DNA of 55,748 nt from contig JAICQO010000037.1 of the NCBI GenBank assembly GCA_025937835.1, forward strand, positions 1 to 55,748, read 5' to 3'. Below are positions 25,221-55,748 of this stretch, one piece after another (within the stretch, counting starts at the first letter, position 1; every line of letters starts with the position of its first letter). A model generated the notes under the pieces. It was not told the origin of the DNA, made no database searches, and worked only from the letters and a program-made list of their open reading frames with translations. This DNA comes from Polyangiaceae bacterium (GTDB lineage: Bacteria > Myxococcota_A > Polyangia > Polyangiales > Polyangiaceae). The translations under genes and the position numbers were made by a program.

Positions 25221-26939
25221 ATGCAGTGTGAAGCCTGCGGTGAGGCGAATGCCGACGGCGCGCGTTTTTGCGCGCGTTGCGGGGCGATTCTTCCGAGTGG
25301 GCCCAAGGGTCCCGACCCCCTGATCGGCCAGATCCTCGGCGGGCGCTTCCGCGTCACCGGAGTGATCGGCGAAGGCGGGATGGGCGTCGTCTATCAAGGC
25401 GAGCAACAGCTCGGCTCGAGCGTCCGCAAGGTGGCGATCAAGACCTTGCACCAGCACCTGTCGAAGGACCCGTCGGTGCTCGCGCGCTTCCACCGCGAAG
25501 TCGGGACCGTCGCCGAGCTCGAGCATCCGAACACGATCAAGGTCTACGACTTCGGCACCACCGCAGACGGCACGCTGTACATCGCGATGGAGTTCGTCGC
25601 GGGCAAGCCGCTCTCCGACGTGATCCGCGACGATCACCGGTTGAACCCGGACCGCGTGGTCAAGATCCTGCGCCAGGTCTGCGGCGCGCTCGACGAGGCC
25701 CACAACAAGGGCATCATTCACCGCGATCTGAAGCCGGAAAACGTGATCCTGACGAACCGAGCCGGCGAGACGGACTTCGTCAAGGTGCTCGATTTCGGCA
25801 TCGCGGCGCGCAGCGAGTCCGGAGATGCCCAGAAAGAGCAGAAGCTCACCCAGCAGGGCATGGTGCTCGGCACGCCGCCGTACATGAGCCCCGAGCAATT
25901 CACGGGTAAAGCGCTGGACGCGCGCAGCGACGTCTACTCGCTCGGCGTGATGGCCTACGAGATGCTGACCGGCCGCCTGCCGTTCGACGCCGACACACCG
26001 TGGCAGTGGGCAACCCAGCACATGACGGCGCAACCGATGACCTTCGAGGTCGCGGCGCCGAACTCGACCATCCCCTCGAATCTGCGCGGCGCCGTGATGC
26101 GCTCGCTGTCGAAGGACCGCGAGCAGCGTCAGCCGTCGGCCCGCGAATTCTTCGACGAGCTCTCGGGAGGCGGCCGGATCACGGTCGAAGGCGGCCCGCC
26201 GCCGGGCGCACAGACCACGGGCACCGCATCGATGGATGCCGTCCCCGACTTCGGCGCGCCCGCACCGATGCCGATGCACGTGGCGCGCGCGGCCGCTCCG
26301 ACCCCGGGCCCGGCGGTCGCCAACATCCCGCACCAGTACGGAGGCGTGCAGCGCCCGCAGCAGGGCGGCGGCGGCAAGGGGCTGATGATTGGCCTCGGCA
26401 TCCTGGGCGCCGTGCTGCTCGGCGCGATCGCCATCGTCGCCGCGCGCTCGCTCGGCTCTTCCACCGAAGATCAGCCGCCGCTCGCGCTCGGCGGTCCGAC
26501 GGATCCCACGGCGCCGACCGCTGCCGGCACGGGCACCGCGCCCGCGACCGCGACCACTTTCGCGCCGCTCGAAACGCCGCCCCCCGATCCCGACCCCGAG
26601 CCAGTCGCCAGCGCAGCGCCGACCCCGGCTGAAACCTCGAAGCCGACCACCACGCCCAAGCCCGCGCAACCCGCGGGCGGTGGCTGCGACGCCTGCCTGA
26701 GCCAGGTCTCCGCCAAGAATTACCAGGGGGCCGCGCGCTCGTATCAGTCCTGCGGTGACGAAGCGAAGAAGAAGGCGTGCAGGGTCGCCCTGCAGCGAGT
26801 CGCCTACCCTGAAGCCAAAGACGCGGCGAACCTGGGCGACTGCAAGAAGGCACAGGCCATCATCGCGGCAGCGGGGATAATGGGCGCGGGGTCGGCAAGG
26901 CTGAACGGCGTGCTCGACACGCCGAGCTGCAAGAAATAG
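25221..26939 (+). CDS. membrane Ser/Thr protein kinase with zinc-ribbon N-terminus
   Basis: A 572-residue eukaryotic-type kinase. A zinc ribbon opens the protein (C3-x2-C6-x10-C17-x2-C20). The kinase domain, about 35-300, has GEGGMGVVY, the ATP-binding Lys74 in VAIK, catalytic D169 in HRDLKPEN, D191-F-G and GTPPYMSPEQ, so it should be active. A Pro/Ala/Gly linker leads to one membrane helix (GLMIGLGILGAVLLGAIAIV, about 390-412). An extracytoplasmic Pro/Thr-rich stretch and a Cys-containing C-terminal domain follow (GGCDACLSQVSAKNYQGAAR, ending DTPSCKK). Such kinases are abundant in myxobacteria and sense unknown envelope signals. It converges on the nucleotidyltransferase gene with a 3-bp gap. 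Confidence 0.95.
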   Translation: MQCEACGEANADGARFCARCGAILPSGPKGPDPLIGQILGGRFRVTGVIGEGGMGVVYQGEQQLGSSVRKVAIKTLHQHLSKDPSVLARFHREVGTVAELEHPNTIKVYDFGTTADGTLYIAMEFVAGKPLSDVIRDDHRLNPDRVVKILRQVCGALDEAHNKGIIHRDLKPENVILTNRAGETDFVKVLDFGIAARSESGDAQKEQKLTQQGMVLGTPPYMSPEQFTGKALDARSDVYSLGVMAYEMLTGRLPFDADTPWQWATQHMTAQPMTFEVAAPNSTIPSNLRGAVMRSLSKDREQRQPSAREFFDELSGGGRITVEGGPPPGAQTTGTASMDAVPDFGAPAPMPMHVARAAAPTPGPAVANIPHQYGGVQRPQQGGGGKGLMIGLGILGAVLLGAIAIVAARSLGSSTEDQPPLALGGPTDPTAPTAAGTGTAPATATTFAPLETPPPDPDPEPVASAAPTPAETSKPTTTPKPAQPAGGGCDACLSQVSAKNYQGAARSYQSCGDEAKKKACRVALQRVAYPEAKDAANLGDCKKAQAIIAAAGIMGAGSARLNGVLDTPSCKK

Positions 26940-29090: not shown

Positions 29091-29885
29091 TCAGCCGCCG
29101 AGAGGTTCGATCCGCAGGTTATCGAAGCAAACCGGAGTTTCCCAGTCGTTGAACGCGAAATACTCGTGCCCTTCGCCGTGGAGCGGTTCCGGATCCCTGA
29201 AGCCGAACAAAGCCACACCGTCCACGAACCAGCGAAGCGTTTCCCCGTCAAGCCGCTCGAGCCGAAACCGGTAGCGGCGGTTGGGCAAAACCGGCAGGGC
29301 GCGCGGCTCGGAGGAGCTCGGCTCGACCCGGAGCTCGAGGCGATCGGCTGCGTGCTCGTCCAGCCGAGCGAGCACGTGGAAGCGGTTCTTCCAACCTCCG
29401 TAGATCAGCAGGTAACTCGTGGCATCGATGTAGGCGTTGCTGCGCGCGCGGCTCTTGCCGTCGCCAAACAGCTCGACCTTGATGTCGCCGTCGGGCGCGG
29501 CGGTCTCGGCGTCGAACTCGACGCGCACGTTGCGCGGTAACCTCCGGCGCAGCCAGACCGGGCGGTTCCGTGCGGCGCGAGCACAGAGCCGGCCCCCTTC
29601 GAGCCCCCAGACCGCGGAGGTCGCCGCGTAGTCGGAGCCGAGGCTCGGGCGCTCGAAATCGTCGAAAAAAACCCGCTCGAGCCGCGGCTCGCTCTCCACC
29701 ACGAACTCGGCGGAGCCCGCTTCGGCCCGCTGGAGCGCGTGCTGAACGCGCTCCAGCGAAGGGCTCGGCGAGGCGACACGGGCGCGCCGCGCTCCCTCGG
29801 GCGGATCCGCAGGCACGCAAGCCGAGAGCCCGAGCAGCAGACACCACGCCGCAGGCTTACGCCCGGCTCTGGTGTTTTCACCCAT
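29091..29885 (-). CDS. lipoprotein with LamG-like jelly-roll domain
   Basis: A 264-residue lipoprotein (LLLGLSAC, Cys23). The mature part has the order of a concanavalin-A/LamG-like or 3-keto-disaccharide-hydrolase-like sandwich: FFDDFERPSLGSDYAATSAV, WGLEGGRLCARAARNRPVWL, NVRVEFDAETAAPDGDIKVE, RYRFRLERLDGETLRWFVDG, and DWETPVCFDNLRIEPLGG. Such domains bind or cleave carbohydrate; no catalytic residues can be assigned here. The ATG at 29885 is chosen because it places the signal sequence at the N-terminus; it overlaps the end of the metallophosphoesterase gene by 8 bp. Confidence 0.8.
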   Translation of the reverse strand: MGENTRAGRKPAAWCLLLGLSACVPADPPEGARRARVASPSPSLERVQHALQRAEAGSAEFVVESEPRLERVFFDDFERPSLGSDYAATSAVWGLEGGRLCARAARNRPVWLRRRLPRNVRVEFDAETAAPDGDIKVELFGDGKSRARSNAYIDATSYLLIYGGWKNRFHVLARLDEHAADRLELRVEPSSSEPRALPVLPNRRYRFRLERLDGETLRWFVDGVALFGFRDPEPLHGEGHEYFAFNDWETPVCFDNLRIEPLGG

Positions 29886-30690
29886 CCAGAGGCCAATCGA
29901 ACTGGTAGCGCGCGGTCTCGGCTCCATGAACCGTCACCAGCATGCGCTGCGGCAAAAGGTCGCAGACGGCGAACGCCGCCGCTGCGCGCCCGGGCGCGTC
30001 CTCGTCGAGGTTCTCGATCAGGCTCTGGACGGTGACGTAGGGGATGCCGCGGATCACGTCGAAATGGTTCCAGTGCACGTGGCCGTTGAACACCGCGCGC
30101 ACCTTGCCCGACGCCTCGAGCACTCGGCGCAGGGCCTTGCGCTCCGCGACGCGGCACACATGCGGCCGCTTCTCGAACCAACGATTGCCGGTGAGGTCTT
30201 GATCGCTCGCCGGGTGGTGCATGAGCACCAGCGCAGGGCCGGGCGCGCTCGCGAGCGCCTGCTCCGCGAAAGCGATCTGCTCTTCGGGCAGGCGGATCAC
30301 CGTGTCCTTGTGCTCGATGGTGCGGAGCACGACGAAGCGGTACCCGCCGAAGTCGACGCTGTAGTGAAGCTCGCCCGAGTGACCCCACAGCGCGCGCAGG
30401 TCGTCGTCACTCAAGTTGGCCTGGTCGTGGTTACCGGCGACGTGCAGCACCCGGGCGTCGAGGCCGGACAGGATCTTCAAGAACAGGCCGTACTCGGCGA
30501 GATCGCGCTCCCGGCTCTCGTCCTCGATCACGTCGCCCAGGTTGACCACGAGATCGGGCCGGAACGTGGCGTTCATGTGCTCGACGAAGCGCTCGGTCAG
30601 CGCCGCGGCTTGGTCGGTCAGCTTGCGGAGCTTGCCGTCGTGGAACGCGCGCGGGCCGAAGTGCTCGTCGGAGAGGAACGCGATACGCAT
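29878..30690 (-). CDS. metallophosphoesterase
   Basis: A 270-residue calcineurin-like phosphoesterase. All five metal-ligand motifs are visible: FLSDEHFG (usually DxH), VVNLGDVIED, AGNHDQ, LVLMHHP and NGHVHWN. The fold is complete and no signal peptide is seen, so it should act in the cytoplasm on a phosphodiester or phosphomonoester of unknown identity; architecture recalls the CpdA/Icc group. First gene of a three-gene minus-strand unit with the LamG-like lipoprotein and the MXAN_5187-like gene. A perfect 16-bp palindrome lies one base upstream of the start codon. Confidence 0.9.
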   Translation of the reverse strand: MRIAFLSDEHFGPRAFHDGKLRKLTDQAAALTERFVEHMNATFRPDLVVNLGDVIEDESRERDLAEYGLFLKILSGLDARVLHVAGNHDQANLSDDDLRALWGHSGELHYSVDFGGYRFVVLRTIEHKDTVIRLPEEQIAFAEQALASAPGPALVLMHHPASDQDLTGNRWFEKRPHVCRVAERKALRRVLEASGKVRAVFNGHVHWNHFDVIRGIPYVTVQSLIENLDEDAPGRAAAAFAVCDLLPQRMLVTVHGAETARYQFDWPLDG

Positions 30691-30723: not shown

Positions 30724-31587
30724 CTACTCGGCTTCGCAGATCGCGCGCACCCGCTCGCCGCAGCCCTGATCCGCCCAATCGAGGGTTGCCCCCTGGATCC
30801 GCACGCAGGCGCCCGTGTAATTCGGCTCTGAATCGCTCGCGCTGTGGCTGCCCCATTTGGCATACGCGAGCGGCTCGCCCGTCAGCCAGCGAAACGGGCA
30901 GGCGCTGGGCATCGCCTTGCACATGGAGGAATTTGGATTCGTCAGCGCGGCGAGGGAAAGGCCGATCCAGGCGTCGTTCGCAGGAGCGAAGAACGTGCTC
31001 TCCAGGAAGCGCTGCTCCTCGACCGAGTTGATCGCGACCAGCGTCGCGCCGGCGTCGGCGCACGCGGCCTGTGCCGACTCGAAATTGAGCAACGAGCTGA
31101 CGTAGAAGTAGCAATGCCCCTCGAAAGAGGTACCGCCGAGCGCGTCGCAGTCCGCGCCGCCTGCCCCACCCGCGCCGGCCGCCGGCGTGCCACCGCTGGC
31201 AGTGCCGCCCGAGGTCGCGCCACCGTTCGCGGTGCCGCCGTTCGCAGTACCGCCGGAGCTCGCGCCGCCGTTTCCACTGCCCGCGGCACCTCCCTCCGTG
31301 TCCGCTTCGCCGCCCGCGCCGCTCGCAGAGGCGCCGCCTTCACCGCCCGACTCCACGGCGCCGGCTGCACCGCCGCGCGCTGCCTCGCCTCCGCTCGCAC
31401 TACCCCCGGGAGTGACGTTCGCGCCTGCCTCGCCCGCCCCGGCCACGCCGCCGGTGCCGCCCGACGTGGCGGCGCCGCCGGTCGCGGCTTCCTCCTGGAC
31501 GTACTCGTCGAAGTCGTAGCTGCAGGCGGCGATCAACAGCCCCGCTGCGCCGAAGCCCCACACGCGACGGCGCGCCGCACGACGCAT
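30724..31587 (-). CDS. lipoprotein with Gly/Ala/Ser repeat linker and C-type-lectin-like domain
   Basis: A 287-residue lipoprotein (LLIAAC, Cys22). Residues about 30-150 are a low-complexity linker of GG-A/S/T triplets (SGGTANGGTANGGATSGG). The last ~140 residues form a C-type-lectin-like domain: CDALGGTSFEGHCYFYVSSL, FESAQAACADAGATLVAINS, DAWIGLSLAALTNPNSS, then WADQGCGERVRAICEAE with the paired Cys. It would be displayed outside and bind sugar or protein. Its start overlaps the stop of the TPR/PEGA gene by one base (TGATG), so it ends a kinase operon. Calcium and sugar ligands are not obviously conserved. Confidence 0.87.
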   Translation of the reverse strand: MRRAARRRVWGFGAAGLLIAACSYDFDEYVQEEAATGGAATSGGTGGVAGAGEAGANVTPGGSASGGEAARGGAAGAVESGGEGGASASGAGGEADTEGGAAGSGNGGASSGGTANGGTANGGATSGGTASGGTPAAGAGGAGGADCDALGGTSFEGHCYFYVSSLLNFESAQAACADAGATLVAINSVEEQRFLESTFFAPANDAWIGLSLAALTNPNSSMCKAMPSACPFRWLTGEPLAYAKWGSHSASDSEPNYTGACVRIQGATLDWADQGCGERVRAICEAE

Positions 31588-32588
31588 CAGAACTTACCCC
31601 GGTAGGCGACGACACCGCCGCCCGGCGCGGGGGTGAAGCTCGCCTGGGTTTCGGGCGTCGGCACGAACAAGAGCAGCGCTGCGCCGCCGGCTGCTCCCAA
31701 AAGCCCTGCAACGAGCCCGACGTTGGCCACGGTCTGCAGCGTCTTTCCGCGCGCGGCGTCGTCGCGGTGACCGGCATCGCTGCAGGGAGCGGAGCCGCAG
31801 TCGGCCTCGAGGTTGTCGTGCACGCCCTTGGCAGACAGGCCCGCAATCGTGAACACGGCGAGCCCGGTCGCGCCGACGCCAATCGCGACCCAGCCCGCGA
31901 CGCGCAGCGGAGAGCGCGACGGCGCCGCAGCGGAGACCGGTGCTGGCCCGCTCGAAGCCGGCGCGGGCTCTGCCGCGCGAGGCGTGAGCACGAGGCTCAC
32001 GGTCTGGGTCTCGCCGGCGGCGAGGGTCGCGCTGCGGCTCGCGGGCTCGAAGCCGTCGGCCTCGCCCTGGACTCGGTGCTCGCCGGGCTCGACCGCGTAG
32101 GCCGCGCCGTACCACTCGGGGGCGAGCGGTTGACCGTCCACCTGGATTCGAAGCCCGGGCGCCTCGGCGGGCGCCACCACCAGCTTCGCCACGCGCTGCT
32201 CGAGCGCGTAGAGCTCTTGCCGCGCGGCCTCACGCGTGGGGTCGTACTTGTCGTCGCGGAGCGCGGTGCTGTTGCCGAGCACGCGCGAGAACGCGCGGTA
32301 CGCCTCCACGGGGCGGCCGAGCTTCACCAGGCAGTGCCCCACGTAGAGCCGGGCGTTCGGGCTGTTCGTGCGCTCGACCAGCGACTCGAACAGCGGCAGC
32401 GCCTGGTCGTAGTGGCGTTCGCGGTAGAGCTTGGCGGCTCGCGTGAACACGACCGTCGCGTCCTCGGTGGCCGCCGGACTCGGCTCGGTTCCAGCCGGAG
32501 CCTGCGCCAGGGCCACGGGCGTGCTCAACGAAGACCCCAGAAAAATCGCCGCGAGCACTGCGCGACGGAGACCGGGCTCACAACTCAT
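31587..32588 (-). CDS. TPR/PEGA-type envelope protein
   Basis: A 333-residue protein with a signal peptide (AAIFLGSSLSTPVALAQ). TPR-like helices follow (AAKLYRERHYDQALPLFESL, RLYVGHCLVKLGRPVEAYRA). A PEGA-like beta domain comes next (LRIQVDGQPLAPEWYGAAYA, GEHRVQGEADGFEP). Two hydrophobic helices near the C-terminus (AGWVAIGVGATGLAVFTIAG; VGLVAGLLGAAGGAALLLFV) would anchor it. Proteins of this layout often sit next to myxobacterial kinase genes. The start overlaps the kinase gene by 11 bp and the end overlaps the lectin gene by 1 bp, so the three are very likely made together. Confidence 0.85.
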   Translation of the reverse strand: MSCEPGLRRAVLAAIFLGSSLSTPVALAQAPAGTEPSPAATEDATVVFTRAAKLYRERHYDQALPLFESLVERTNSPNARLYVGHCLVKLGRPVEAYRAFSRVLGNSTALRDDKYDPTREAARQELYALEQRVAKLVVAPAEAPGLRIQVDGQPLAPEWYGAAYAVEPGEHRVQGEADGFEPASRSATLAAGETQTVSLVLTPRAAEPAPASSGPAPVSAAAPSRSPLRVAGWVAIGVGATGLAVFTIAGLSAKGVHDNLEADCGSAPCSDAGHRDDAARGKTLQTVANVGLVAGLLGAAGGAALLLFVPTPETQASFTPAPGGGVVAYRGKF

Positions 32589-34017
32589 TCGGCAGAAACT
32601 CCTTGGGTCGCGCCGGGGGGCGGTAGCGGCGCCCGGCACCGTATGCGCTCGGCGGAAGCTCGACCGCGGGCGGCGGGCTGGACGCCTCGGGCGCGGTGAC
32701 TTCGGCGGTGGCGCTGGGCTCGGGAGCAGCTTTCGCGGGGACCTCTGGCGCTGGCTCCGCGGCCGCGGGCGGCGGCGGCGCGGGCTTCGCGATGGCCGCG
32801 CGCGACGGCTCTGGCGCTGCGTCTCCGCTGCTCATCACGCTGACGATGCCAATCAACGACAGAACGGTCAGCGCGGCAGCGAAAGCCCAGACCGGTTTGG
32901 GGACGCGCGCGAGCGCGCTCGGCGCAGCCGGCTTCGCAGCAGGCGTGACAATCGCCGGCGCCTGCGCGACTTCGGGAGCCGGAGCCGGCAGCGACTGCCG
33001 CACCAAGCTCACGCCCGAGGTCTCGACCTGGTGAATGAGCTCCATGCGCGCCGCGAGCTCCTCGACCGCGAGCGTCGCGACCCAGTCGCCCACCACGCGC
33101 GGTGTTGCGGCCACGTGCAGGCTCTCGAGCTCGATCGCCATCTCGAGCGCGGTGGCGTAGCGCTCGCTCGGCTTGGCGGAGATACCCCGCACGATCACGC
33201 GCTCGACATCGACCGGCAGATCGCGCGCGTATTGCTTGGGCGAAGGGTAATTCCCCTTGGCCACGGCGTTCAGCCGCTCGACCTCGGTGGCCCCGCCGAA
33301 CAGCTTGCGGCCCGCGATGAGCTCCCAGAACAGAGTCGCCGCCGAGAACACGTCGGCTTGGCGAGTGGCCGGAGCGCCGTGCACGAGCTCGGGCGCCATG
33401 TACGAGTGCTTGCCCTTGAGCACGCCGGGATCGGTGTCCTGCTTCGCGCTCATGGCGCGCGCCACGCCGAAGTCCACGACGCGCGCGATGCCGTCGACGC
33501 CCACCAGCACGTTCTGCGGCGACACGTCGCGGTGCACGAGAGCGAGCGGACGACCTCGCTCGTCGGTGGCCTCGTGCGCGGCCTCGAGCCCGTGCAGCAT
33601 CTGCAGGATCATCGAGTACACGATCGGCCGCGGCATGTTCTTCTTGGCCTTGACCGAGGCCTGCATCAGCGCGTGCACCGACACGCCGTGCACGTACTCC
33701 ATCACGATCAGCAGCTCTTCGCCGGTCGCGAGCACGTCGAGGATTGGCACCACGTTCGGGTGGCGCACGCGCGCGGCGAGCCGCGCCTCCTCCAGGAACA
33801 TGCGCTTGAACTCCTGGTTTTCGAGCAGATGGCGGTGCATGCGCTTGACCGCCACCACCCGCGAAAACCCTTCTTGCCCGGTGAGCCGCGCCAGGTGCAC
33901 GCGCGCCATGCCGCCGGCCGCGATCTGATCGAAGATCGCGTAGCGCCCCACTTGTTGCTCGGGGTGTTTCTGCGTCAGACCTGCTTGCACGCCAAAGCCT
34001 CGAGCAAGATAACCCAT
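32578..34017 (-). CDS. membrane Ser/Thr protein kinase
   Basis: A 479-residue eukaryotic-type kinase. The kinase domain, about 25-305, has a modified glycine loop (AAGGMARVHLAR), ATP-binding Lys in VVAVKRM, catalytic HRDVSPQNVL, VDFGVA and SYMAPE; the VSPQN form of the catalytic loop is common in myxobacterial kinases. A linker leads to one membrane helix (VWAFAAALTVLSLIGIVSVM, about 378-398) and a Pro/Ala/Glu-rich tail ending KEFLPNEL. It heads an overlapping operon with the TPR/PEGA and lectin-fold proteins, which may be its signal input or its outputs. No strong ribosome-binding site precedes the ATG. Confidence 0.94.
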   Translation of the reverse strand: MGYLARGFGVQAGLTQKHPEQQVGRYAIFDQIAAGGMARVHLARLTGQEGFSRVVAVKRMHRHLLENQEFKRMFLEEARLAARVRHPNVVPILDVLATGEELLIVMEYVHGVSVHALMQASVKAKKNMPRPIVYSMILQMLHGLEAAHEATDERGRPLALVHRDVSPQNVLVGVDGIARVVDFGVARAMSAKQDTDPGVLKGKHSYMAPELVHGAPATRQADVFSAATLFWELIAGRKLFGGATEVERLNAVAKGNYPSPKQYARDLPVDVERVIVRGISAKPSERYATALEMAIELESLHVAATPRVVGDWVATLAVEELAARMELIHQVETSGVSLVRQSLPAPAPEVAQAPAIVTPAAKPAAPSALARVPKPVWAFAAALTVLSLIGIVSVMSSGDAAPEPSRAAIAKPAPPPPAAAEPAPEVPAKAAPEPSATAEVTAPEASSPPPAVELPPSAYGAGRRYRPPARPKEFLPNEL

Positions 34018-36070: not shown

Positions 36071-36367
36071 CTAGTGCCCGAGCGCCCAGGGCCGCCCGGC
36101 CGCGGCGATGGGCCTGGGCGGATCGCGCGGGGCCGAGCACTCTTTGCGGGGCGCGCGTTCGACGCGGCGTGGCTCGTGACGGCTGCGCTCATTGCGTTCG
36201 TGGGCGCGCGACAGGCCGCGCGGTAAGGCGGGTACGTTGGGGGCGCTCAGGATGCGCGGGGCGTGGACTTCGCAGTCGGGGCACGGCGCAGCGAGCGATG
36301 CTTCGGCCATCGGGCGCGAGCGCTCGAAGACTCCGTGCTCGGCACACTGGTACTCGTAGAGCGGCAT
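36071..36367 (-). CDS. fmdB: FmdB-family zinc-ribbon protein
   Basis: A 98-residue protein. The N-terminal zinc ribbon reads MPLYEYQCAEHGVFE with CPDCEVHAPRILSAP, two Cys pairs (the first one Cys-x2-His) as in FmdB, proposed to regulate formamidase expression in Methylophilus. After residue 55 the chain is Arg/Pro-rich and probably disordered (RAHERNERSRHEPRR). It starts 2 bp after the fmdA stop and is last in the amide operon. The regulatory role is known only by association with fmdA. Confidence 0.85.
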   Translation of the reverse strand: MPLYEYQCAEHGVFERSRPMAEASLAAPCPDCEVHAPRILSAPNVPALPRGLSRAHERNERSRHEPRRVERAPRKECSAPRDPPRPIAAAGRPWALGH

Positions 36368-36369
36368 GC

Positions 36370-37590
36370 TCAACCTGCCTTCGCGAGGTCGACGCCGGGA
36401 GCCACTCCGCCCACGGGGCCAGCCGCGCTCGGGTTGATGTCGAACTCGAAGATCTCGGTCGGGATCGCCAGCGTGGCGCAGGCGTTCGGGATGTCGACGA
36501 TGCCGCTGATGCGGCCCTCGACGGGGGCTGTGCCCAAGATCGCGTAGGCCTGCGCGCCCGTGTAGCCGAACTTCTTCAGGTATTCGATGGCGTTCAAGCA
36601 CGCCTGGCGATACGCGATGTGCACGTCGAGGTAATGCTGCTTGCCAGCCTCGTCGACGGAGATGCCCTCGAAGATCAGGTACGACGAGTAGTTCGGCTCC
36701 ATCGGGCCCGGCTTGAAGATCGGGTTCTTGACGCCGTAGGTGGCCATGCCGCCCCTGATCAGCTTGACGCGCAGGTCGAGGTAGCCGGCCATCTCGATCG
36801 CTCCGCAAAAGGTGATCTCGCCGTCCCCCTGTGAGAAGTGGATGTCGCCCATCGAGAGGCCGCCGCCCTTGACGTAGACGGGGAAGAACACCTGTGAACC
36901 GCGCGACAGGTTCTTGATGTCGCAGTTGCCTCCGTGCTCGCGGGGCGGCACCGTGCGCGCGCCCTCGAGCCCGGCCTGCTTGGCCGCGTCCGGCTTCATC
37001 CGGCCCATGTGCGCCGTCTCGCCGGAAGGCAGCGCACACAGCGGCGGCGTGCGCTCCGGGTTGGTGCTGAACAGGGCTCTTTCGCGCTTGTTCCACAGCT
37101 CGAGCAGCTCCTTCGACGGCAGACACCCGATCAGACCCGGGTGCATGATGCCCGCGAACTCGACGCCCGGGATGTGGCGCGAGTTCGCGTAGATGCCGCT
37201 GAAGTTCCAGCACGCCTTGCGCGCCTCGGGGTAGTGGTCGACGAGGAAGCCGCCGCCGTTCTCGCGCGCGAAGATCCCGGTGAAGCCCCACTGCGAGGTC
37301 TGGAGCACGCCGATGTCGAGGATATCGACGACCAGCAAGTCTCCGGGCTCGGCGCCCTCGACGCCGATTGGGCCGCTCAGGTAGTGCACCTTGGTCAGAT
37401 CGACGATCTTGATGTCGGTCGCGCTGTCGTCGTCCTGGATCTGCCCGCCCGTCCAATCGATGCACTCGACCCGGAACTGATCTCCCGGTTTGACCCACGA
37501 GACCATTGGAATGTCCGGGTGCCAGCGGTTATGCAAAACGTCCTGCTTTTCCGGGGCTTCCTTCACGTCTACGCGGATCAAAGTCTCCAT
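36370..37590 (-). CDS. fmdA: formamidase
   Basis: A 406-residue acetamidase/formamidase-family enzyme that hydrolyses formamide (and perhaps other short amides) to ammonia and the acid. Family blocks are clear: HNRWHPDIPMVSWVKPGDQF, ECIDWTGGQIQDDDSATDIK, VHYLSGPIGVEGAEPGDLLV, HPGLIGCLPS, GGNCDIKNLSRGSQVFFPVY and GDGEITFCGAIE. The length is typical. GGAAGGAG precedes the ATG, one of the best ribosome-binding sites in the window. It follows urtE by 56 bp on the same strand and belongs to one unit with the transporter. The enzyme should be cytoplasmic. Confidence 0.95.
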   Translation of the reverse strand: METLIRVDVKEAPEKQDVLHNRWHPDIPMVSWVKPGDQFRVECIDWTGGQIQDDDSATDIKIVDLTKVHYLSGPIGVEGAEPGDLLVVDILDIGVLQTSQWGFTGIFARENGGGFLVDHYPEARKACWNFSGIYANSRHIPGVEFAGIMHPGLIGCLPSKELLELWNKRERALFSTNPERTPPLCALPSGETAHMGRMKPDAAKQAGLEGARTVPPREHGGNCDIKNLSRGSQVFFPVYVKGGGLSMGDIHFSQGDGEITFCGAIEMAGYLDLRVKLIRGGMATYGVKNPIFKPGPMEPNYSSYLIFEGISVDEAGKQHYLDVHIAYRQACLNAIEYLKKFGYTGAQAYAILGTAPVEGRISGIVDIPNACATLAIPTEIFEFDINPSAAGPVGGVAPGVDLAKAG

Positions 37591-37646
37591 CTAGTTTCTC
37601 CTTCCAAGGGCAATGGTCGATGCGCAAGCGAGCGAGCTACGTCGAG

Positions 37647-38345
37647 CTAGATCGCAAGTAGCTTTCCGAGCGAGGCTTCTTCGAGGTCGGCTCGCGGCGA
37701 CTGGTGCACGAGCGCGCCGCGCACCATCACCGCCACGCGATCGGCGACCGCGAGCGCGAAGCTCAAGACCTGCTCCGAAACCAGGATCGTGAGCCCCTTC
37801 TCGTCGCGGATGCGCTTGAGCTGCACCGCGATCTCTTTGATGATCGAGGGCTGGATGCCTTCGGTGGGCTCGTCCAGCAGTAACACGCGCGGGTTGCTGG
37901 CGAGCGCTCTGCCGATCGCGAGCTGCTGTTGCTGCCCGCCGGACAGGTTGCCCGCGCGCCGCTTGCGCATCTCCTTCAAGACCGGGAAAAACTCGTAGAT
38001 CTCGGCGGGAACTCCGCGCGCAGAGGCGGGCAAGCCCGACACGATGTTCTCTTCCACCGTCAGCGTCGGGAACACCATCCGGCCCTGCGGGACGTACGCG
38101 AGGCCGTTGGCGACGCGCTCGAACGGCGCGGCGCGTGTCAGGTCCTTGCCGCCGAGCAACAGCCGGCCAGCGCGCAAGGGCAACAGGCCGATCAGCGCCT
38201 TCATGACCGTGGTCTTGCCCATGCCGTTCAGGCCCATCAGCGCCACGATCTCGTTTTGCTTGGCGTCGAGCGAGAGCTTTCCGACCACCTCGCTCTCGCC
38301 GTAACAGACGCGGATCGAGTCCGCTTCGAATACGCTCTCCGTCAT
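37647..38345 (-). CDS. urtE: urea/amide ABC transporter ATPase UrtE
   Basis: A 232-residue ABC ATPase of the branched-chain amino acid/urea (HAAT) type, equivalent to LivF. Walker A is the unusual GLNGMGKTT found in UrtE; the signature is LSGGQQQQLAIGRAL; Walker B is VLLLDEPTEGIQ, with the HAAT-specific EGIQPSII tail. It powers import of the substrate bound by UrtA. It starts 7 bp after urtD. A choice between urea and short amides as substrate is not possible from this subunit. Confidence 0.94.
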   Translation of the reverse strand: MTESVFEADSIRVCYGESEVVGKLSLDAKQNEIVALMGLNGMGKTTVMKALIGLLPLRAGRLLLGGKDLTRAAPFERVANGLAYVPQGRMVFPTLTVEENIVSGLPASARGVPAEIYEFFPVLKEMRKRRAGNLSGGQQQQLAIGRALASNPRVLLLDEPTEGIQPSIIKEIAVQLKRIRDEKGLTILVSEQVLSFALAVADRVAVMVRGALVHQSPRADLEEASLGKLLAI

Positions 38346-38352
38346 GTTTGCC

Positions 38353-39093
38353 TCAATGCCCGAGGTAGACCTCGACCACCCGCGGGTCGCTTTGAATCGC
38401 GTCCATCTTGCCCTCCATCAGGATCTTGCCCTGATGCAGGACCGTGACGCGGTCGGCGATCTTGCGCACGAAGTCCATGTCGTGCTCGACCACCACCACG
38501 GCCCGCTCTTTCACGAGCTCGAGCAGCAGCGCCGCCGTGAGCTCCCGGTCTTGTACGCTCATGCCCGCGACGGGCTCGTCGAGCAGCAAGAGGTCGGGCT
38601 CCTGGATCAACAGCGCGCCGATCTCGAGCCACTGTTTCTGCCCATGGCTGAGCTTTTCGGCTCGCTCGTGGAGCTTATCCTTCAGGTAAATGAGCTCGGC
38701 GACCTCCTCGACCTTCTTCACCACCGCCTCGCTGCGGCGGAAGCTCCACGCCGAAAGCCAGGTGCGCGCGTCGGGGTAGGCCATCTCGAGGTTTTCGAAC
38801 ACGGTCAGCGCCTCGTAGACGGACGGCGTCTGGAACTTGCGTCCGATGCCGCGGCGTACGATCTGGTTCTCGCGCAACCCGCCGATGTCCGCTTCCTTGA
38901 AGCGGATCTCACCGGACGTGGGCGAGGTGCGGCCCGTGATCAGGTCGAGCAGCGTGGTCTTGCCCGCGCCGTTGGGTCCGATGATCGCGCAGATCTGGTT
39001 CTTGGCCGCGTAGAACGTCAGATCGTCGACCGCCTTGAAGCCGTCGAACTCGACGCTCAGGTGCTCGACCCGCAGCAAGAATTCTCCGAACAT
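38353..39093 (-). CDS. urtD: urea/amide ABC transporter ATPase UrtD
   Basis: A 246-residue ABC ATPase, equivalent to LivG. Walker A GPNGAGKTT, Q-loop GRKFQTPSVYEALTVFENLE (the KFQ.P.V..ALTV form is typical of UrtD), signature LSHGQKQWLEIGALL and Walker B LLLLDEPVAGM are all present. The SHGQKQWLEI variant of the signature distinguishes UrtD from LivG. Its ATG overlaps the urtC stop by one base (TGATG), and a GAGGAG site lies inside the end of urtC. Confidence 0.95.
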   Translation of the reverse strand: MFGEFLLRVEHLSVEFDGFKAVDDLTFYAAKNQICAIIGPNGAGKTTLLDLITGRTSPTSGEIRFKEADIGGLRENQIVRRGIGRKFQTPSVYEALTVFENLEMAYPDARTWLSAWSFRRSEAVVKKVEEVAELIYLKDKLHERAEKLSHGQKQWLEIGALLIQEPDLLLLDEPVAGMSVQDRELTAALLLELVKERAVVVVEHDMDFVRKIADRVTVLHQGKILMEGKMDAIQSDPRVVEVYLGH

Positions 39094-40310
39094 CAGCCGT
39101 TACTCCTCGGTGCCGCGGTCACCCCGGGGCGGCTCGGCGCGGGTTTCGGGATCGACAGGCCCACGGACGGCTTTTGAAAGCGCCGCAGCTTCGACTCGAT
39201 GAACGACCGCATCTTCATCAGATCCAGCCCGGCGAGGCCGTTCGGGAACACCATCACGACCGCGATGAACAGGAAGCCGATCACGAACAGCCACAGCTCG
39301 GGGAAGCTCTCCGAAAAGTAGGTTTTGCCGAAGTTCACGAGCAGCGAGCCGTAGATCGCGCCGAACAGGGAGCTGCGCCCGCCGACCGCCGCGCAAATCA
39401 CCATCTCGATCGACGGCACGATGCCCACGAAGGAAGGCGACATGAAGCCGACTTGGAGCGTGAACATCGCGCCGCCGACCGCGGACAGCATCGCCGCCAG
39501 CACGAACACGAACGTCTTGAGCGACGCCACGTCGTAGCCGGTGAACAGCACGCGCTCTTCCTTGTCACGGAGCGCCACCAACAGCCGGCCGAGCTTGCTG
39601 CGGATCAGCGACAGCCCGAGCAGCACCGCGCCGAGCAGCAGCACGGCGTTGACGTAGTAGAGGATCACCTTCGCCTCGTCCGTCCGGATGTCCCAGCCGA
39701 GCAGCGTCTTCAGGTCCGTGATGCCGTTGACACCGCCGGTGTAACCCTGGCGCCCGATGATCAGGATCGACAGGATCGAGGCGATGGCCTGGGTGATGAT
39801 CGCGAAATAGACGCCGCCGACGCGGCGCTTGAACATCGCGAGCCCGACGACCAGCGCCAGCAGCCCCGGCACGACCAGCACCGCGAGCAGCGTGAACGGC
39901 AGCGATTCGAAGGGCACCCAGAACGCCGGCAGCTCCTTCAGCTGGTTCCAATCCATGAAGTCCGGGATGCCCGGTGTCGATTGGATGGCCGTGCTCTTCG
40001 GGTCGGAGGCCTCGAGCTTCAGGAACATCGCCATGCAGTAGCCGCCGAGGCCGAAGAACACGCCCTGCCCGAGGCTCAAGATCCCGCCGTAGCCCCAGCA
40101 CAGCACGAGCCCCAGCGCGACGAACGCATAGGTCAGGTACTTGCCCACCAGGTTCAGACGGAACACGTCGAGCCCGAGCGGGAACACCAGGAGCAAGAGC
40201 ACGGCCAGAAGCACGAAGCTGGCGTTCTCGCGCGTGCTCTTTTCGCTCGAGAGGCGAGCCGTGAAGCTTCGAAAGCGGGCGGACCACGGCGAGGGGGTCG
40301 CACGTTCCAT
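39093..40310 (-). CDS. urtC: urea/amide ABC transporter permease UrtC
   Basis: A 405-residue inner-membrane permease of the LivM type with about ten helices. The family core is seen in LVLCWGYGGILSLGQGVFFG, YCMAMFLKLEASDPKS, RRVGGVYFAIITQAIASILS, QGYTGGVNGITDLKTLLGWD and AVGGRSSLFGAIYGSLLVNF. The GVFFGLGGYCMAMFL and LKTLLG features are UrtC-like. GGAGGT for this gene lies in the last codons of urtB, 5-6 bases before the ATG. Length is within the usual range, with a slightly long cytoplasmic C-terminus. Confidence 0.94.
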   Translation of the reverse strand: MERATPSPWSARFRSFTARLSSEKSTRENASFVLLAVLLLLVFPLGLDVFRLNLVGKYLTYAFVALGLVLCWGYGGILSLGQGVFFGLGGYCMAMFLKLEASDPKSTAIQSTPGIPDFMDWNQLKELPAFWVPFESLPFTLLAVLVVPGLLALVVGLAMFKRRVGGVYFAIITQAIASILSILIIGRQGYTGGVNGITDLKTLLGWDIRTDEAKVILYYVNAVLLLGAVLLGLSLIRSKLGRLLVALRDKEERVLFTGYDVASLKTFVFVLAAMLSAVGGAMFTLQVGFMSPSFVGIVPSIEMVICAAVGGRSSLFGAIYGSLLVNFGKTYFSESFPELWLFVIGFLFIAVVMVFPNGLAGLDLMKMRSFIESKLRRFQKPSVGLSIPKPAPSRPGVTAAPRSNG

Positions 40311-40314
40311 TCAG

Positions 40315-41217
40315 TTACCTCCGTACCTTGATCGAGAACAGCCCCTGGGGTCTGAGCATCAGGATCACGATGATCGTCGACAGCGTCAGCACCTTTGCCA
40401 TCGAGCCGGTCATGAAGAACTCGGTCGCCGCCTGCGTCTGCGCGATGCTGAACGCCGACAGGATCGTGCCGATCAGCCGCTCGGCGCCGCCGAACACGAC
40501 CACCAGAAAGGTGTCCACGATGTACAGCGAGCCACTGGTGGGGCCCGTCGAGCCGATGGTCGTGAACGCCGCGCCGGCAACGCCTGCGAGCCCGCAGCCG
40601 ATTGCGAACGTGAGCTCGTCTACCTTGCGCGTGTTGATGCCCGCGGCGCTGGCCATGGCCCGGTTCTGCACGGTCGCTCGCACCCAGACGCCGAAACGCG
40701 TGGACGTGAGCCCGAACACGACGAGCCCGGTGAGCGCTGCCGTGAGCGCCATCATGAACAGGCCGTTGATCGGGATGTCGATGGTGGCGGTGGGTTTCAG
40801 CGACCCCATCAACCAGTCGGGGAGCGTTGCGCTGACCTCGCGCGCGCCGAACCCGGAGCGAAACGCTTGCTGCATCACCAGGCTGAGGCCCCAGGTCGCG
40901 AGCAACGTGTCGAGCGGCCTGCGGTACAGGTGCCGCACCATGAAGCGCTCCACGAGCCAGCCGACGGCTCCGGCGAGCACGAAGCTCACGACGATCGCCA
41001 CCGGAAAGTACCAGGTCTGAAACCAGTCACCGAGCACGCTCCCGGCCTGCGAGAGCAAGAACGTGGTGTAGGCGCCGATCGTCAAGAACTCGCCGTGCGC
41101 CATGTTGATCACGCCCATCTGGCCGAAAATGATGGCCAGCCCCAGGGCCATGAGCAGCAGCACACAGAAGGTGCTGAGCCCGTTGAACGCCTGCATCGCC
41201 CAGATCGAAAGGTCCAT
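40315..41217 (-). CDS. urtB: urea/amide ABC transporter permease UrtB
   Basis: A 300-residue inner-membrane permease of the LivH type. Recognisable blocks are LGLAIIFGQMGVINMAHGEF, LTIGAYTTFLLSQAG, RRPLDTLLATWGLSLVMQQA, VRATVQNRAMASAAGINTRK, TFAIGCGLAGVAGAAFTTIG and FLVVVFGGAERLIGTILSAF. The VINMAHGE and NRxMA..GIN features are those of UrtB. GAGGTG precedes the ATG. A strong hairpin separates it from urtA upstream, while urtC starts 4 bp downstream. Confidence 0.95.
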   Translation of the reverse strand: MDLSIWAMQAFNGLSTFCVLLLMALGLAIIFGQMGVINMAHGEFLTIGAYTTFLLSQAGSVLGDWFQTWYFPVAIVVSFVLAGAVGWLVERFMVRHLYRRPLDTLLATWGLSLVMQQAFRSGFGAREVSATLPDWLMGSLKPTATIDIPINGLFMMALTAALTGLVVFGLTSTRFGVWVRATVQNRAMASAAGINTRKVDELTFAIGCGLAGVAGAAFTTIGSTGPTSGSLYIVDTFLVVVFGGAERLIGTILSAFSIAQTQAATEFFMTGSMAKVLTLSTIIVILMLRPQGLFSIKVRR

Positions 41218-41250
41218 GCTGCACCTCGAAGGAAGCTGGTTCCGGGAACG

Positions 41251-41291
41251 GCTGGTGTCCGCTCGGGAGAGAGCGACGAGCGGACACCAGC
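41251..41291 (-). terminator. 15-bp perfect hairpin between urtA and urtB
   Basis: GCTGGTGTCCGCTCG (41251-41265) pairs perfectly with 41277-41291 across an 11-base loop. It lies 34 bp after the urtA stop and 33 bp before the urtB start. There is no T-run, so it is more likely a partial terminator or a 3'-end stabiliser that keeps urtA mRNA in excess over the membrane subunits. Confidence 0.65.
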
Positions 41292-41325
41292 CGCACCTCG
41301 CAAGACTTGGTTCGCCCGAATCAGC

Positions 41326-42606
41326 TCACTGATAACCCTTGGGGAAGGGGTTCGGCTCGATCAGCTCCGACTCGTAGAGCACCTTGTACTGCCCGTCCAT
41401 TTGCACCTGGCCGATGCGCAGCTTGCTCCACAGGTGGTGGTTCTCGTGGATCTTCACGTAACCCTCGGGAGCGGTCGTGAGCTCGATGCCGGGCGACGCG
41501 GCGACGACCTTGTCCACCTCGAAGCTGCCGGCCTTTTCGACGCCGAGCTTCCACAGCCACGGGCCGAGGTAGGCAGCCTGCGTCACGTCGCCGATCACCG
41601 ATTTTTCGCCGTACTTCTTCTTGAACGCCGCGACGAACTTCTTGTTGTTCTCGTTCTCGAGGCTCTGGAAGTACTTCATGGCCGCGTAGAAGCCGACCAT
41701 GTTCTCGCCCCCGATCCCGAGCAGCTCGTCTTCGGTGACCGAGATCGTCAGGAGCGTCTGGTTCTCGGCGGTGACGCCGGCGGCCTTCAGCTGCTTGTAG
41801 AATGAGACGTTGCTGCCGCCGACCACGATCGCGTACACGGCGTCGGGCTTCTGCGCCTTGATCTTGTTGATCAACGAGCCGAACTGGGTGTGGCCGAGCG
41901 GGTAGTACTCCTCGCCCACGACCGTGCCTTTCAGCACGTTTTCGATGTGTTTTCGCGCGATCTTGTTAGACGTACGCGGCCAGATGTAGTCCGAGCCGAT
42001 CAGGAAGAACGTCTTGGCGTTCTTGGTTTTTTGCAACCAGTCGAGCCCCGCCAGGATCTGCTGGGTCGCTTCCTGACCGGTGTAAAACACGTTCTTCGAC
42101 TGCTCGAGGCCTTCGTAGAAGGTCGGGTAATAGAGCAAGCCGTTGTCCTTCTCGAACACGGGCAGCACGGCCTTCCTCGAGGCCGAAGTCCAGCAGCCCA
42201 TCACGGATGCCACGTGATCTTGCTCGAGCAGCTTCTTCGCCTTCTCGGCGAAGGTCGGCCAGTCGCTCGCGCCGTCCTCCTGGATGATCTTGATCTTGCG
42301 ACCGAGCACGCCGCCGGCTTCGTTGATCTGATCGATTGCCAGTCGCTCGGCCTGGATCGAGCCCGTCTCGCTGATCGCCATCGTGCCCGTGGCGCTGTGC
42401 AGCTGACCGACGGTGACCTCCGTGTCGGTGACGGCCAGGCCGCCCGTCTTGGTCGCCGCCTCACCGCTAGCCTTGTTATCAGCGGGATTTCCGGTTTCGC
42501 TGCCGCTCGCCTTCTTGCAGCCGGAAGAGACGAGCAGTACCGCTACGACGAAAGCCGACCACGGAACGAACGACGCGAGCCGCGACCTAAGCCTGTGCCT
42601 GACCAT
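41326..42606 (-). CDS. urtA: urea/amide ABC transporter substrate-binding lipoprotein UrtA
   Basis: A 426-residue periplasmic-binding lipoprotein (LLVSSGC, Cys30). The Leu/Ile/Val-binding-type fold is clear: VGQLHSATGTMAISETGSIQ, QINEAGGVLGRKIKIIQEDG, VMGCWTSASRKAVLPVFEKD, LLYYPTFYEGLEQSKNVFYT and FFLIGSDYIWPRTSNKIARK, all close to UrtA/FmdD amide-urea-binding proteins. GAGGAG precedes the ATG. It is the first gene of the operon urtABCDE-fmdA-fmdB. Urea versus formamide or acetamide cannot be decided, but formamidase downstream and the absence of urease genes here favour amides. Confidence 0.95.
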   Translation of the reverse strand: MVRHRLRSRLASFVPWSAFVVAVLLVSSGCKKASGSETGNPADNKASGEAATKTGGLAVTDTEVTVGQLHSATGTMAISETGSIQAERLAIDQINEAGGVLGRKIKIIQEDGASDWPTFAEKAKKLLEQDHVASVMGCWTSASRKAVLPVFEKDNGLLYYPTFYEGLEQSKNVFYTGQEATQQILAGLDWLQKTKNAKTFFLIGSDYIWPRTSNKIARKHIENVLKGTVVGEEYYPLGHTQFGSLINKIKAQKPDAVYAIVVGGSNVSFYKQLKAAGVTAENQTLLTISVTEDELLGIGGENMVGFYAAMKYFQSLENENNKKFVAAFKKKYGEKSVIGDVTQAAYLGPWLWKLGVEKAGSFEVDKVVAASPGIELTTAPEGYVKIHENHHLWSKLRIGQVQMDGQYKVLYESELIEPNPFPKGYQ

Positions 42607-43240: not shown

Positions 43241-44158
43241 AACTACCAGGGCCGGCGCGCCCAGCGCGGCCGTGAGCACGCCGACCGGCAATTCGCGACC
43301 GGGCACCAGCGTGCGCGCGAGCGCGTCGCACAGGCTCAGGAACGCTGCCCCCGCGCACAGCGAGAGCGGGAGCAACGCGCGCACGCCCGGGCCCACCGCG
43401 AGGCGCACCACGTGCGGCACGATCAGGCCGACGAAGGCGATTGGGCCGCACCAGGCGACCGCCGCTGCGACGGCCAGCGAAGCCGCGCCGAGCACGATCA
43501 GCCGCAAGCGCGGCACATCCACACCTTGCGAGGCTGCCAGGTCGTCACCGAGGGCTAGCGACGCGAGCGCCCGGCTGCGCGAGAGCAGCACGGCGCTGGT
43601 GACGACCACGATCGGCGTGAGCAGCGTGACGCCGCGATAGCCGACCTGCGGGAGCTGACCGAGGGCCCAGCGCGAAGCCGCGAACGTGGCCTGGCTGTCG
43701 GCGACGTACTGGACGCCGGTCGCGATCGCGCTCGCGGCCAGGCTGACCGCGATGCCCGCGAGCAGGACGTCTTCGATGCGGGCGCGGCCGCTCTGCGCGA
43801 CGGCCGCCACGGACAAGCTCGTGACGAGCGCGCCCGTGAACGCGGCCAGCGTCGTCACGGGAAGGCCCGCGAGCTCGGAGTCCACGCCGAACACCACGGC
43901 GAGCAGCGCGCCGAGCGTGGCGCCCGCCAGGGTGCCGACCGTGCTGGGGGTCGCGAGCGGGTTGTTGAAGACGATCTGAAAACACGCGCCGGACAGCGAC
44001 AGCGCCGCCCCCACCAGAGCGCCCACGAAGAGCCGCGGTACGCGCAGCTCGAAGAACACGAACTCCGCGTGAGGGCCGGTCAGAGGCGGGCCCGCGAACA
44101 CCGACAGCCCGAGCGCAAGCAGCGAAGCCAGCACGACCAGCGCGATGCGACGGGTCAC
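43220..44158 (-). CDS. FecCD-family ABC importer permease
   Basis: A 312-residue inner-membrane permease of the BtuC/FecCD/FhuB type. Signature blocks are ELRVPRLFVGALVGAALSLS, GACFQIVFNNPLATPSTVGT, LGALLAVVFGVD, FVGLIVPHVVRLAVGPGVRA and ELPVGVLTAALGAP. These carry cobalamin, haem or ferric siderophores with an ATPase and a binding protein, both encoded just upstream. The GTG start overlaps the ATPase stop (GTGA, 44155-44158). It is last in the operon and overlaps the end of the convergent HTH gene by 21 bp. Confidence 0.92.
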   Translation of the reverse strand: MTRRIALVVLASLLALGLSVFAGPPLTGPHAEFVFFELRVPRLFVGALVGAALSLSGACFQIVFNNPLATPSTVGTLAGATLGALLAVVFGVDSELAGLPVTTLAAFTGALVTSLSVAAVAQSGRARIEDVLLAGIAVSLAASAIATGVQYVADSQATFAASRWALGQLPQVGYRGVTLLTPIVVVTSAVLLSRSRALASLALGDDLAASQGVDVPRLRLIVLGAASLAVAAAVAWCGPIAFVGLIVPHVVRLAVGPGVRALLPLSLCAGAAFLSLCDALARTLVPGRELPVGVLTAALGAPALVVLIARRR

Positions 44159-55303: not shown

Positions 55304-55336
55304 CGTCGCGCATCACGCCGCACCTCGGCTCAGTCA

Positions 55337-55748
55337 CGGCGCGCACGTCATTGGTTTTTACCGCCACGGGCGCCAGGCGGAACGCCACGGGCGCCAGGTT
55401 TTTTTGAGGTCGCACTTCACGCCGCAGCCCGACTTAGTCACGGCGCGCACGTCATTGGTTTTTACCGCCACGGGCGCCAGGCGGAACGCCAGGGGCGCCA
55501 GTTTTTTTGGGTCGCACTTCACGCCGCAGCCCGACTTAGTCACGGCGCGCACGTCATTGGTTTTTACCGCCACGGGCGCCAGGCGGAACGCCACGGGCGC
55601 CAGGATTTTTGGGGGATCGCAATTCACGGCTCACACCCGACGAGGGTCTCGGCGCGCACGTCATTGGTTTTTACCGCCACGGGCGCCAGGCGGAACGCCA
55701 CGGGCGCCAGGATTTTTGGGGGATCGCAATTCACGGCTCACACCCGAC
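55337..55748. repeat. tandem array of about 104-bp units, four copies to the window edge
   Basis: Units start at 55337, 55441, 55543 and 55650 (spacing 104, 102, 107). Each holds CGGCGCGCACGTCATTGG, a T-run, then CGCCACGGGCGCCAGG twice separated by CGGAA, then a T-rich stretch. Units 1-2 end in one variant (CGCCGCAGCCCGACTTAGTCA) and units 3-4 in another (ATTCACGGCTCACACCCGAC). The array continues beyond the window. The unit lengths are not all multiples of three, so the repeated minus-strand peptide is not maintained as a gene. Confidence 0.9.
55369..55405 (+). terminator. terminator-like hairpin and T-run in array unit 1
   Basis: GGCGCC (55369-55374) pairs with 55390-55395, with an inner GGCG-GAA-CGCC hairpin, followed three bases later by seven T at 55399-55405. 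It lies 65 bp after the pcnB stop and has the form of an intrinsic terminator. The same structure recurs in the other units, with T-runs at 55502-55508, 55606-55610 and 55713-55717. Confidence 0.5.

Follow-up and report, generated by a model that had tools for sequence, protein, structure and literature searches.

A conserved kinase, TPR/PEGA, and lectin-lipoprotein operon of Polyangiales as a candidate split receptor kinase

In RcsF-IgaA-RcsC, an outer-membrane lipoprotein acts as the one fixed sensor and is followed in series across the envelope by a membrane protein and a kinase, in a histidine phosphorelay. The serine/threonine (Ser/Thr) kinases of myxobacteria are very numerous and have mostly unknown inputs. 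Here, we analyse a 55,748-nucleotide stretch of a Polyangiaceae bacterium (JAICQO010000037.1, contig C45 of a 6.9-Mb assembly of 227 contigs and 95.8% completeness), referred to as the window, in which three overlapping genes encode a membrane Ser/Thr kinase, a protein with tetratricopeptide repeat (TPR)-like helices and a PEGA domain, and a lectin-domain lipoprotein. The proteins are unrelated to those of RcsF-IgaA-RcsC, the likeness lying in the series of lipoprotein, membrane protein, and kinase. The trio rather probably forms a single receptor kinase that is divided among three proteins and crosses the envelope, in which the TPR/PEGA protein would serve as adaptor and the lipoprotein would be an exchangeable head.

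Among described systems, GlnH-GlnX-PknG of Corynebacterium and mycobacteria comes closest in logic. One account describes a putative three-gene operon that combines a lipoprotein binding a ligand with a membrane protein and a Ser/Thr kinase, and places the GlnH lipoprotein upstream of PknG kinase output by genetic evidence (PMC9769921). By the same account, PknG is cytoplasmic without a transmembrane (TM) segment, GlnX is an all-helical four-TM protein, and GlnH is a periplasmic Asp/Glu-binding protein; a TPR scaffold also takes part in the system, according to a second source (PMC8546545). In contrast, the kinase of the window is predicted to span the membrane, the middle protein combines TPR, PEGA, and hairpin, and many paralogues carry many heads. 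Moreover, no solute-binding domain was found in the three trio proteins by Pfam scan, which places them outside the GlnH-GlnX-PknG group. PASTA-type kinases such as PknB and StkP resemble the window kinase as membrane kinases with a cytoplasmic Hanks domain, whereas the latter has an extracytoplasmic Pro/Ala-rich tail with a fixed end, and sensing apparently resides on separate proteins. A model's earlier sequence-only reading of this DNA knew of no described system of this composition. The literature searched agrees, as no description of a kinase-TPR/PEGA-lipoprotein unit was found by titles and abstract starts (subscription journals thinly covered, preprints outside scope); the known GlnH-GlnX-PknG operon, of other make-up, qualifies that statement.

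On the minus strand, the kinase gene is followed by the TPR/PEGA gene and the lectin lipoprotein gene. The first junction, ATGAGTTGTGA, is an 11-bp overlap and the second, TGATG, a 1-bp overlap, both as given in the sequence-only reading. The TPR/PEGA gene is counted from its ATG, while the longest open reading frame (ORF) begins at a GTG at 32639. The lipoprotein residues from the lipidated Cys onward are termed the tip; G, C, and L numbers denote genomes, contigs, and loci.

32578–34017, minus strand: membrane Ser/Thr kinase gene, 479 residues (Pkinase, E 6.6e-35).
32578–32588, minus strand: 11-bp overlap of the kinase and TPR/PEGA genes (junction sequence).
31587–32588, minus strand: TPR/PEGA gene, 333 residues from the ATG, with a signal-peptide-like start (Pfam, orthologues).
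30724–31587, minus strand: lectin-domain lipoprotein gene, 287 residues (Pfam; TGATG overlap with the preceding gene).
31501–31524, minus strand: conserved tip CSYDFDEY, starting with the lipidated Cys (tip type shared by G003, G007, G001, G024, and other genera).

The closest relatives of all three proteins lie adjacent and in unchanged order in two other species (G003:C7 and G007:C73), with identities of 44–52%. In G001:C867, the kinase and TPR/PEGA genes stand beside the start of a like lipoprotein, the contig ending within its tether. G024, from a more distant genus, has a TPR/PEGA gene that overlaps by ATGA with a gene for a lipoprotein whose tip reads CSYDFDRF and whose lectin domain is truncated where the contig ends; its kinase is divergent. 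The TPR/PEGA and lipoprotein genes overlap at five of five loci, by TGATG (G000, G001), TTGA (G003, G007), or ATGA (G024), and all three complete lectin orthologues, that of the window included, are found behind the same kinase and TPR/PEGA genes. In contrast, no flank orthologues were found among the genes called by script at three related loci when set against 22–46 kb of the window; the other flank matches are cross-hits between kinase domains, a match of a second L081 TPR/PEGA gene to that of the window, and a weak match to 44155–45438. Because the order of the trio is kept in two further species and the flanking genes are not, the arrangement described by the sequence-only reading is confirmed as real and more than chance. 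The conserved co-occurrence of the three genes, which that reading had proposed as a check, is thus found in G003 and G007 and partly in G001. Two neighbouring genes, for a metallophosphoesterase (29878–30690) and a DUF6250-like protein (29091–29927), were considered as further operon members and rejected, since neither has a counterpart beside the trio in L079–L081.

The lectin domain was matched at E ≤ 1e-10 in 9 of 108 genomes of the family, and only G000, G003, and G007 match it at E < 1e-70, the next best value being 2e-17. A scan of genome contigs with this domain gave four loci, two of them the G007 and G003 contigs, and two relatives occur in Polyangiaceae metagenome-assembled genomes (L127, L128). 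Within the genus, at least six of 31 Lectin_C matches, some of which fall within one ORF, lie directly behind a TPR/PEGA gene, and at most 25 lie elsewhere. The six comprise the three orthologues and a second group (G006:C102, G005:C46, G003:C22), and thus represent two related groups; about 0.1 would be expected by chance, and at least two would arise by chance with p 0.004. Kinases and TPR/PEGA genes are abundant, the latter with 163 relatives at E ≤ 1e-9 in eight genomes of the genus, which would favour a chance neighbourhood of three unrelated genes. With the order conserved in several species, including G003 and G007, and lectins so far in excess behind TPR/PEGA genes, we regard such a coincidence as hardly credible.

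The window trio is one member of a larger operon family sharing its kinase and TPR/PEGA types. Loci of the genus were picked by similarity to the window TPR/PEGA protein, whatever gene follows, and 77 stretches yielded 78 genes once ORFs under 250 residues, duplicate entries, and genes lying up to 500 bp from the end of a stretch had been removed. A lipoprotein start was counted if its Cys lay at most 130 bp from the TPR/PEGA stop, while the other genes of the same stretches, kinases left out, served as controls under the same rule. Such a start at or just after the stop was found for 41 of the 78 genes compared with 23 of 393 controls (Fisher p 2e-21), where the first usable start most often has an offset of −4 (18/41), and a kinase lies within 1.5 kb on either strand in 45 of 78 cases. 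A stricter earlier lipobox rule gave 26 of 57 TPR/PEGA loci, compared with 11/310 for control genes and 3/39 for kinases. The pattern extends to other genera, with 13/22 versus 7/72 controls in a first set and 13/20 versus 3/93 in a second, 11 and seven of these cases having both kinase and lipoprotein. For eight fresh genomes, a prediction of at least 40% versus less than 10% of controls had been fixed beforehand; the outcome was 12 of 21 (57%) versus 8 of 82 (9.8%), with both kinase and lipoprotein in 12 cases. The window's own genome, 22 of whose 24 TPR/PEGA genes were examined, gave 10/22 versus 13/151, seven with both. Across the phylum, where about nine TPR/PEGA candidates were scored per genome, homologues (E ≤ 1e-8) occur in 87 of 237 genomes, 54 of the 87 belonging to the same order (own genome included), and 31 of the 33 more distant TPR/PEGA-bearing genomes hold only one to five homologues each.

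The first protein has the features of a Hanks-type Ser/Thr kinase, with a Pkinase match of 121 bits (Pfam cut-off 31.7) and the catalytic K58, HRD (162–164), N169, DFG (182–184), and APE (208–210) invariant in the three orthologues. A single TM helix is predicted near residue 376, followed by a Pro/Ala-rich tail. Match and helix together bear out the membrane Ser/Thr kinase of the sequence-only reading. The tail is hypervariable across the three orthologues, yet its final five residues, LPNEL, are identical. A Pfam scan of the kinase found no PASTA domain, and the NCBIfam model PknB_PASTA scores 213 bits against a cut-off of 450; the solved kinases nearest by sequence are PknE, PknB, and StkP.

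33253–33933, minus strand: kinase domain, residues 29–255 (Pfam match).
32836–32892, minus strand: predicted TM helix, about residues 376–394 (hydropathy peak 2.29 at residue 376).
32581–32595, minus strand: LPNEL at the C-terminus of the kinase, a proposed docking peptide for the TPR/PEGA protein (invariant in three orthologues; tail types).

A second Ser/Thr kinase is encoded at 25221–26939 (Pkinase 164 bits), with an N-terminal zinc ribbon; no TPR/PEGA gene adjoining it was found in the window.

The middle protein is assigned to the PEGA family (PF08308) at 24.9 bits versus a cut-off of 20.8, the match covering only profile positions 30–69 of 71, and the TPR models of Pfam stay below their cut-offs. 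An AlphaFold2 model built on three sequences places TPR-like helices (44–130; pLDDT 71–97 per block of ten) before PEGA strands (134–199) and a long helical hairpin (227–306). Searched with Foldseek, the model finds its first TPR match at rank 4 (E 0.003) and many more near 0.01–0.02, while the two matches below 0.001 are to a chain of a hydrazine dehydrogenase complex and to a carboxypeptidase D. The matches include TPR domains solved with bound peptides as well as other TPR proteins; binding of C-terminal peptides in TPR grooves is well known, for instance for the tails of Hsp90 and Hsp70. Since the protein ends in two hydrophobic helices by model and hydropathy, a feature absent from the sequence-only reading, it is probably a membrane protein. 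Between the two predicted membrane helices, a Cys-x2-12-Cys pair within the last 125 residues is present in 117 of 127 family members.

32199–32459, minus strand: TPR-like helices, residues 44–130 (AlphaFold2 model on three sequences; Foldseek TPR matches).
31980–32189, minus strand: PEGA β-domain, residues 134–203 (Pfam, 165–203; model strands, 134–199).
31671–31910, minus strand: predicted hydrophobic helical hairpin, residues 227–306 (model and hydropathy).
31782–31799, minus strand: Cys pair C264–C269 in the hairpin loop (pair common in the family).

The third protein is a bacterial lipoprotein by its lipobox LIAAC (residues 18–22, with C22 as the Cys), found by eye and by script. The tip CSYDFDEY is followed by a tether of 109 residues, 44 of them Gly, as the long Gly-rich tether of the sequence-only reading would have it, and by a C-type lectin domain. 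This domain matches Lectin_C at 55.5 bits (cut-off 22.6), is 48 and 52% identical to its two orthologues, and keeps WIGLSL and Cys 15, 32, 117, 132, and 140 (domain numbering) invariant in all three. The full Ca2+ site 2 of Ca2+-dependent sugar-binding lectins is not present: EPN and the D of WND are kept, while the Glu before the Cys is missing (TGAC or TGSC) and WND reads WAD or WGD. Thus, three positions are kept of what we take to be the five usual Ca2+-site positions, those of rat mannose-binding protein. As this Glu is absent, Ca2+-dependent sugar binding should not be assumed, and the earlier proposal that the lectin captures ligand becomes doubtful. The closest solved sequences to the head are C-type lectin-domain proteins, namely the secretory phospholipase A2 receptor, Ly75, mannose receptors, and DC-SIGN, from which it differs in being a bacterial lipoprotein with a partly kept Ca2+ site. 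A structure prediction of the lectin domain had a mean pLDDT of 51 and was discarded.

31156–31482, minus strand: Gly-rich tether, residues 36–144 (44 Gly of 109).
30727–31155, minus strand: C-type lectin-like domain (Lectin_C 55.5 bits; identity to two orthologues).

Heads were scanned for 34 of the 40 third-gene proteins found. Eleven of these have a Pfam match over cut-off, of eight kinds: Lectin_C (3), the Ig-like Big_5 (2), and one each of FG-GAP, FGE-sulfatase, GDSL lipase, Kelch, Calx-beta (by whole-protein score only), and LTD. The three Lectin_C heads had been fetched as lectins; leaving them out gives an unbiased 8 of 31 heads with a match, spanning seven kinds. In a kinase-domain tree of 43 rows, the two lectin groups, that of the window and the second one, occupy different supported places, and the second falls in a supported clade together with the Kelch-headed L171. 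The tips within this clade are CPVTDDYF, CPLTDDYF, CPLTDHYY, and CPAVLDDQF. Such like tips together with lectin or Kelch heads in one kinase clade indicate that the tip type stays while the head changes. In sister operons, the kinase-TPR/PEGA pair is accompanied by other third genes, which makes the lectin one head among several rather than the defining part. Consequently, of the complete sensor envisaged by the sequence-only reading, the conserved three-gene unit stands as a working model, while the lectin loses its special role. What that reading had named as counting against it, a lectin gene unlinked and the kinase paired with other genes, is half observed, in that sister pairs bear other third genes and up to 25 of 31 lectins lie elsewhere.

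The GDSL lipase and FGE-sulfatase-fold heads could be effectors, in which case the kinase and TPR/PEGA protein would control envelope assembly, with the third gene supplying cargo or an effector (adhesin, enzyme) rather than a sensor. Co-transcription suits output as well as input, and for many kinases with the tail types given below no third gene was found. A like tip type across unrelated heads, however, suits docking to a common partner better than co-expression, and an effector role of the third gene is in our view unlikely.

Further loci show other arrangements. L081 (8489–12060) has a variant order, with the kinase followed by a lipoprotein with four Lipoprotein_15 repeats and then the TPR/PEGA gene. 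In L109 (8076–9464), the gene behind the kinase and TPR/PEGA pair, at +124 bp, encodes a lipoprotein that consists of many CGDYVCGPGENQYNCPQDC-like repeats and has no Pfam match. L193 and L194 (G005:C335 and G006:C49) hold stand-alone lectins, and the kinases in the same stretch share the C-terminus QDPFTGKYKRL; these loci may represent another neighbourhood of lectins and kinases that lacks a TPR/PEGA gene.

Kinase tails were sorted into types A ([YFL].P..[LI]), B ([DENG].G[FYI]), and C (R[YFHKR]), and lipoprotein tips into types A (C..[DN][FYW]..[FYW]), B (GDF- or DDxF-like), and C (C..hh[GD]x[DENTQ]). Among 51 trios, the 11 A tails go with nine A tips, one B tip, and one other, and all 16 C tails go with C tips, so that A-C crosses number zero. 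The 17 B tails are accompanied by nine B tips and eight others, and the seven other tails by five C tips, one B tip, and one other. In the eight fresh genomes, the seven A tails have five A tips, two others, and none of type C; three B tails have one B tip and two others, and two other tails one C tip and one other. Typed tips occur there in 7 of 12 cases compared with none of eight control lipoproteins. A typed tail was found in 70 of 98 kinases beside a TPR/PEGA gene and in 12 of 31 kinases with no such gene in reach, some of whose partners may lie beyond the stretch. An earlier single tip motif, C..hh[GD]x[DENTQFY], was matched in 26 of 41 lipoproteins of the genus versus 1/23 among control lipoproteins (29/41 versus 6/23 with a looser pattern), and in other genera in 7/13 and then 3/13, with controls of 0/7 and 0/3; the window's own tip type is common there, and the single motif was replaced by the three types.

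Tail and tip similarity correlate, with r 0.37 in the earlier set, 0.33 in the 51 trios, and 0.14 (p 0.06) and 0.15 (p 0.03) in the most thinned sets. In the 51 trios, the value is 0.27 once kinase-domain similarity is allowed for. Given the kinase domain, the partial correlation with the TPR/PEGA protein reaches 0.51 for the tail and 0.47 for the tip, while that between tail and kinase domain given TPR/PEGA is −0.09. Direct tail-tip coevolution was rejected, since that correlation vanishes once TPR/PEGA similarity is allowed for, and the claim is therefore limited to both ends following the TPR/PEGA protein. Tracking of this protein by both ends is the trace that would be expected of an adaptor meeting both.

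For the split receptor, the following course of events can be proposed. The lipoprotein would be the sensing head, its C-terminal domain meeting the ligand, and its N-terminal tip, directly behind the lipid anchor, would dock in the periplasm. The TPR/PEGA adaptor would sit in a membrane via its helical hairpin, binding the tip on one side and, on the other, the C-terminal peptide of the kinase tail (here LPNEL) in its TPR groove; that the tail is a TPR ligand is what we infer. Occupation of the head would alter the complex and hence the kinase inside. Complex formation, binding partners, localization, ligand, and signalling are likewise inferred steps. The window operon would be one of many paralogous units that keep kinase and adaptor and exchange the head, here a C-type lectin-like domain.

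Several observations weigh against a split receptor of this kind. Behind 37 of the 78 TPR/PEGA genes of the genus no lipoprotein was found, 33 have no kinase within 1.5 kb, and only 26 have both; gene and lipobox calls were made by plain scripts, and most assemblies are split into many contigs. As no lipoprotein was found behind about half of these genes, two-gene versions exist or the heads lie elsewhere. Of the scanned heads, 23 of 34 are without a Pfam match over cut-off. The rules for tail and tip types were written after the sequences had been seen, 28 of the 98 kinases with an adjacent TPR/PEGA gene have an untyped tail, and the same tail types occur on kinases with no lipoprotein found. 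C tails are absent from the eight fresh genomes, so that the pairing forecast, the only one made beforehand for these types, bears on its A half only. A Cys pair between the membrane helices would be odd in a cytoplasmic loop, and its conservation disfavours that placement. Finally, the tail-tip correlation given both kinase domain and TPR/PEGA is 0.04 (p 0.17) in the 51 trios and 0.01 (p 0.43) in the earlier set, although it is 0.10–0.11 (p 0.02) in two of four thinned sets. With this partial correlation near zero, the matched types are explicable by shared ancestry of the operon; if tail, adaptor, and tip descended together while kinase domains were exchanged, the trace would be the same as that left by an adaptor.

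In its full form, this explanation is co-inheritance without contact: an old operon was often duplicated, tail, adaptor, and tip diverged by descent, and the lectin head is independent. While the partial Mantel result of about zero for tail against tip suits it, the similarity of the tail tracks the next gene and not its own kinase domain once TPR/PEGA is allowed for, an objection qualified by the unadjusted tail/kinase-domain correlation of 0.34 (earlier set). Moreover, the final residues stay constant while the tail ahead of them varies freely, and the trio is kept while its flanks are lost. We consider co-inheritance without contact quite improbable.

A broader proposal, which we put forward tentatively and with somewhat more doubt than belief, is that the trio belongs to an undescribed Polyangiales class of split receptor kinases with about ten paralogous operons per genome, in which one adaptor, by reading two short peptide codes, one at the C-terminus of the kinase and one in the lipoprotein tip, would allow any head, whether lectin, propeller, Ig-like, or enzyme-like, to be coupled to a private kinase. 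If true, this would be a three-protein, envelope-spanning bacterial counterpart of receptor-kinase families. With a dedicated exchangeable head, a kinase of this kind would have a candidate input accessible to expression and screening, and the matched peptide types offer a concrete and cheap binding test and possibly a predictor of head-kinase pairing. The stimuli of bacterial kinases are named as an outstanding question in one source (PMC6069109).

Elsewhere on the contig, the minus-strand region 36370–42606 looks like an operon for amide or urea uptake and hydrolysis. It contains a formamidase/acetamidase gene (PF03069, 614 bits) and a gene for a periplasmic binding protein (Peripla_BP_5, 424 bits), between which two ABC-ATPase-like and two permease-like ORFs were identified by eye on the same strand. 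Directly behind the formamidase gene, at about 36071–36370, lies the end of a long minus-strand ORF, MPLYEYQCAEHGVFERS..., which we take to resemble an FmdB-type zinc-ribbon regulator. Tandem arrays occupy both ends of the contig, with three copies of a 97-bp unit at 1–290 and 4.1 copies of units of about 104 bp (92% matches) at 55305–55748, and are a possible reason for the contig breaks.

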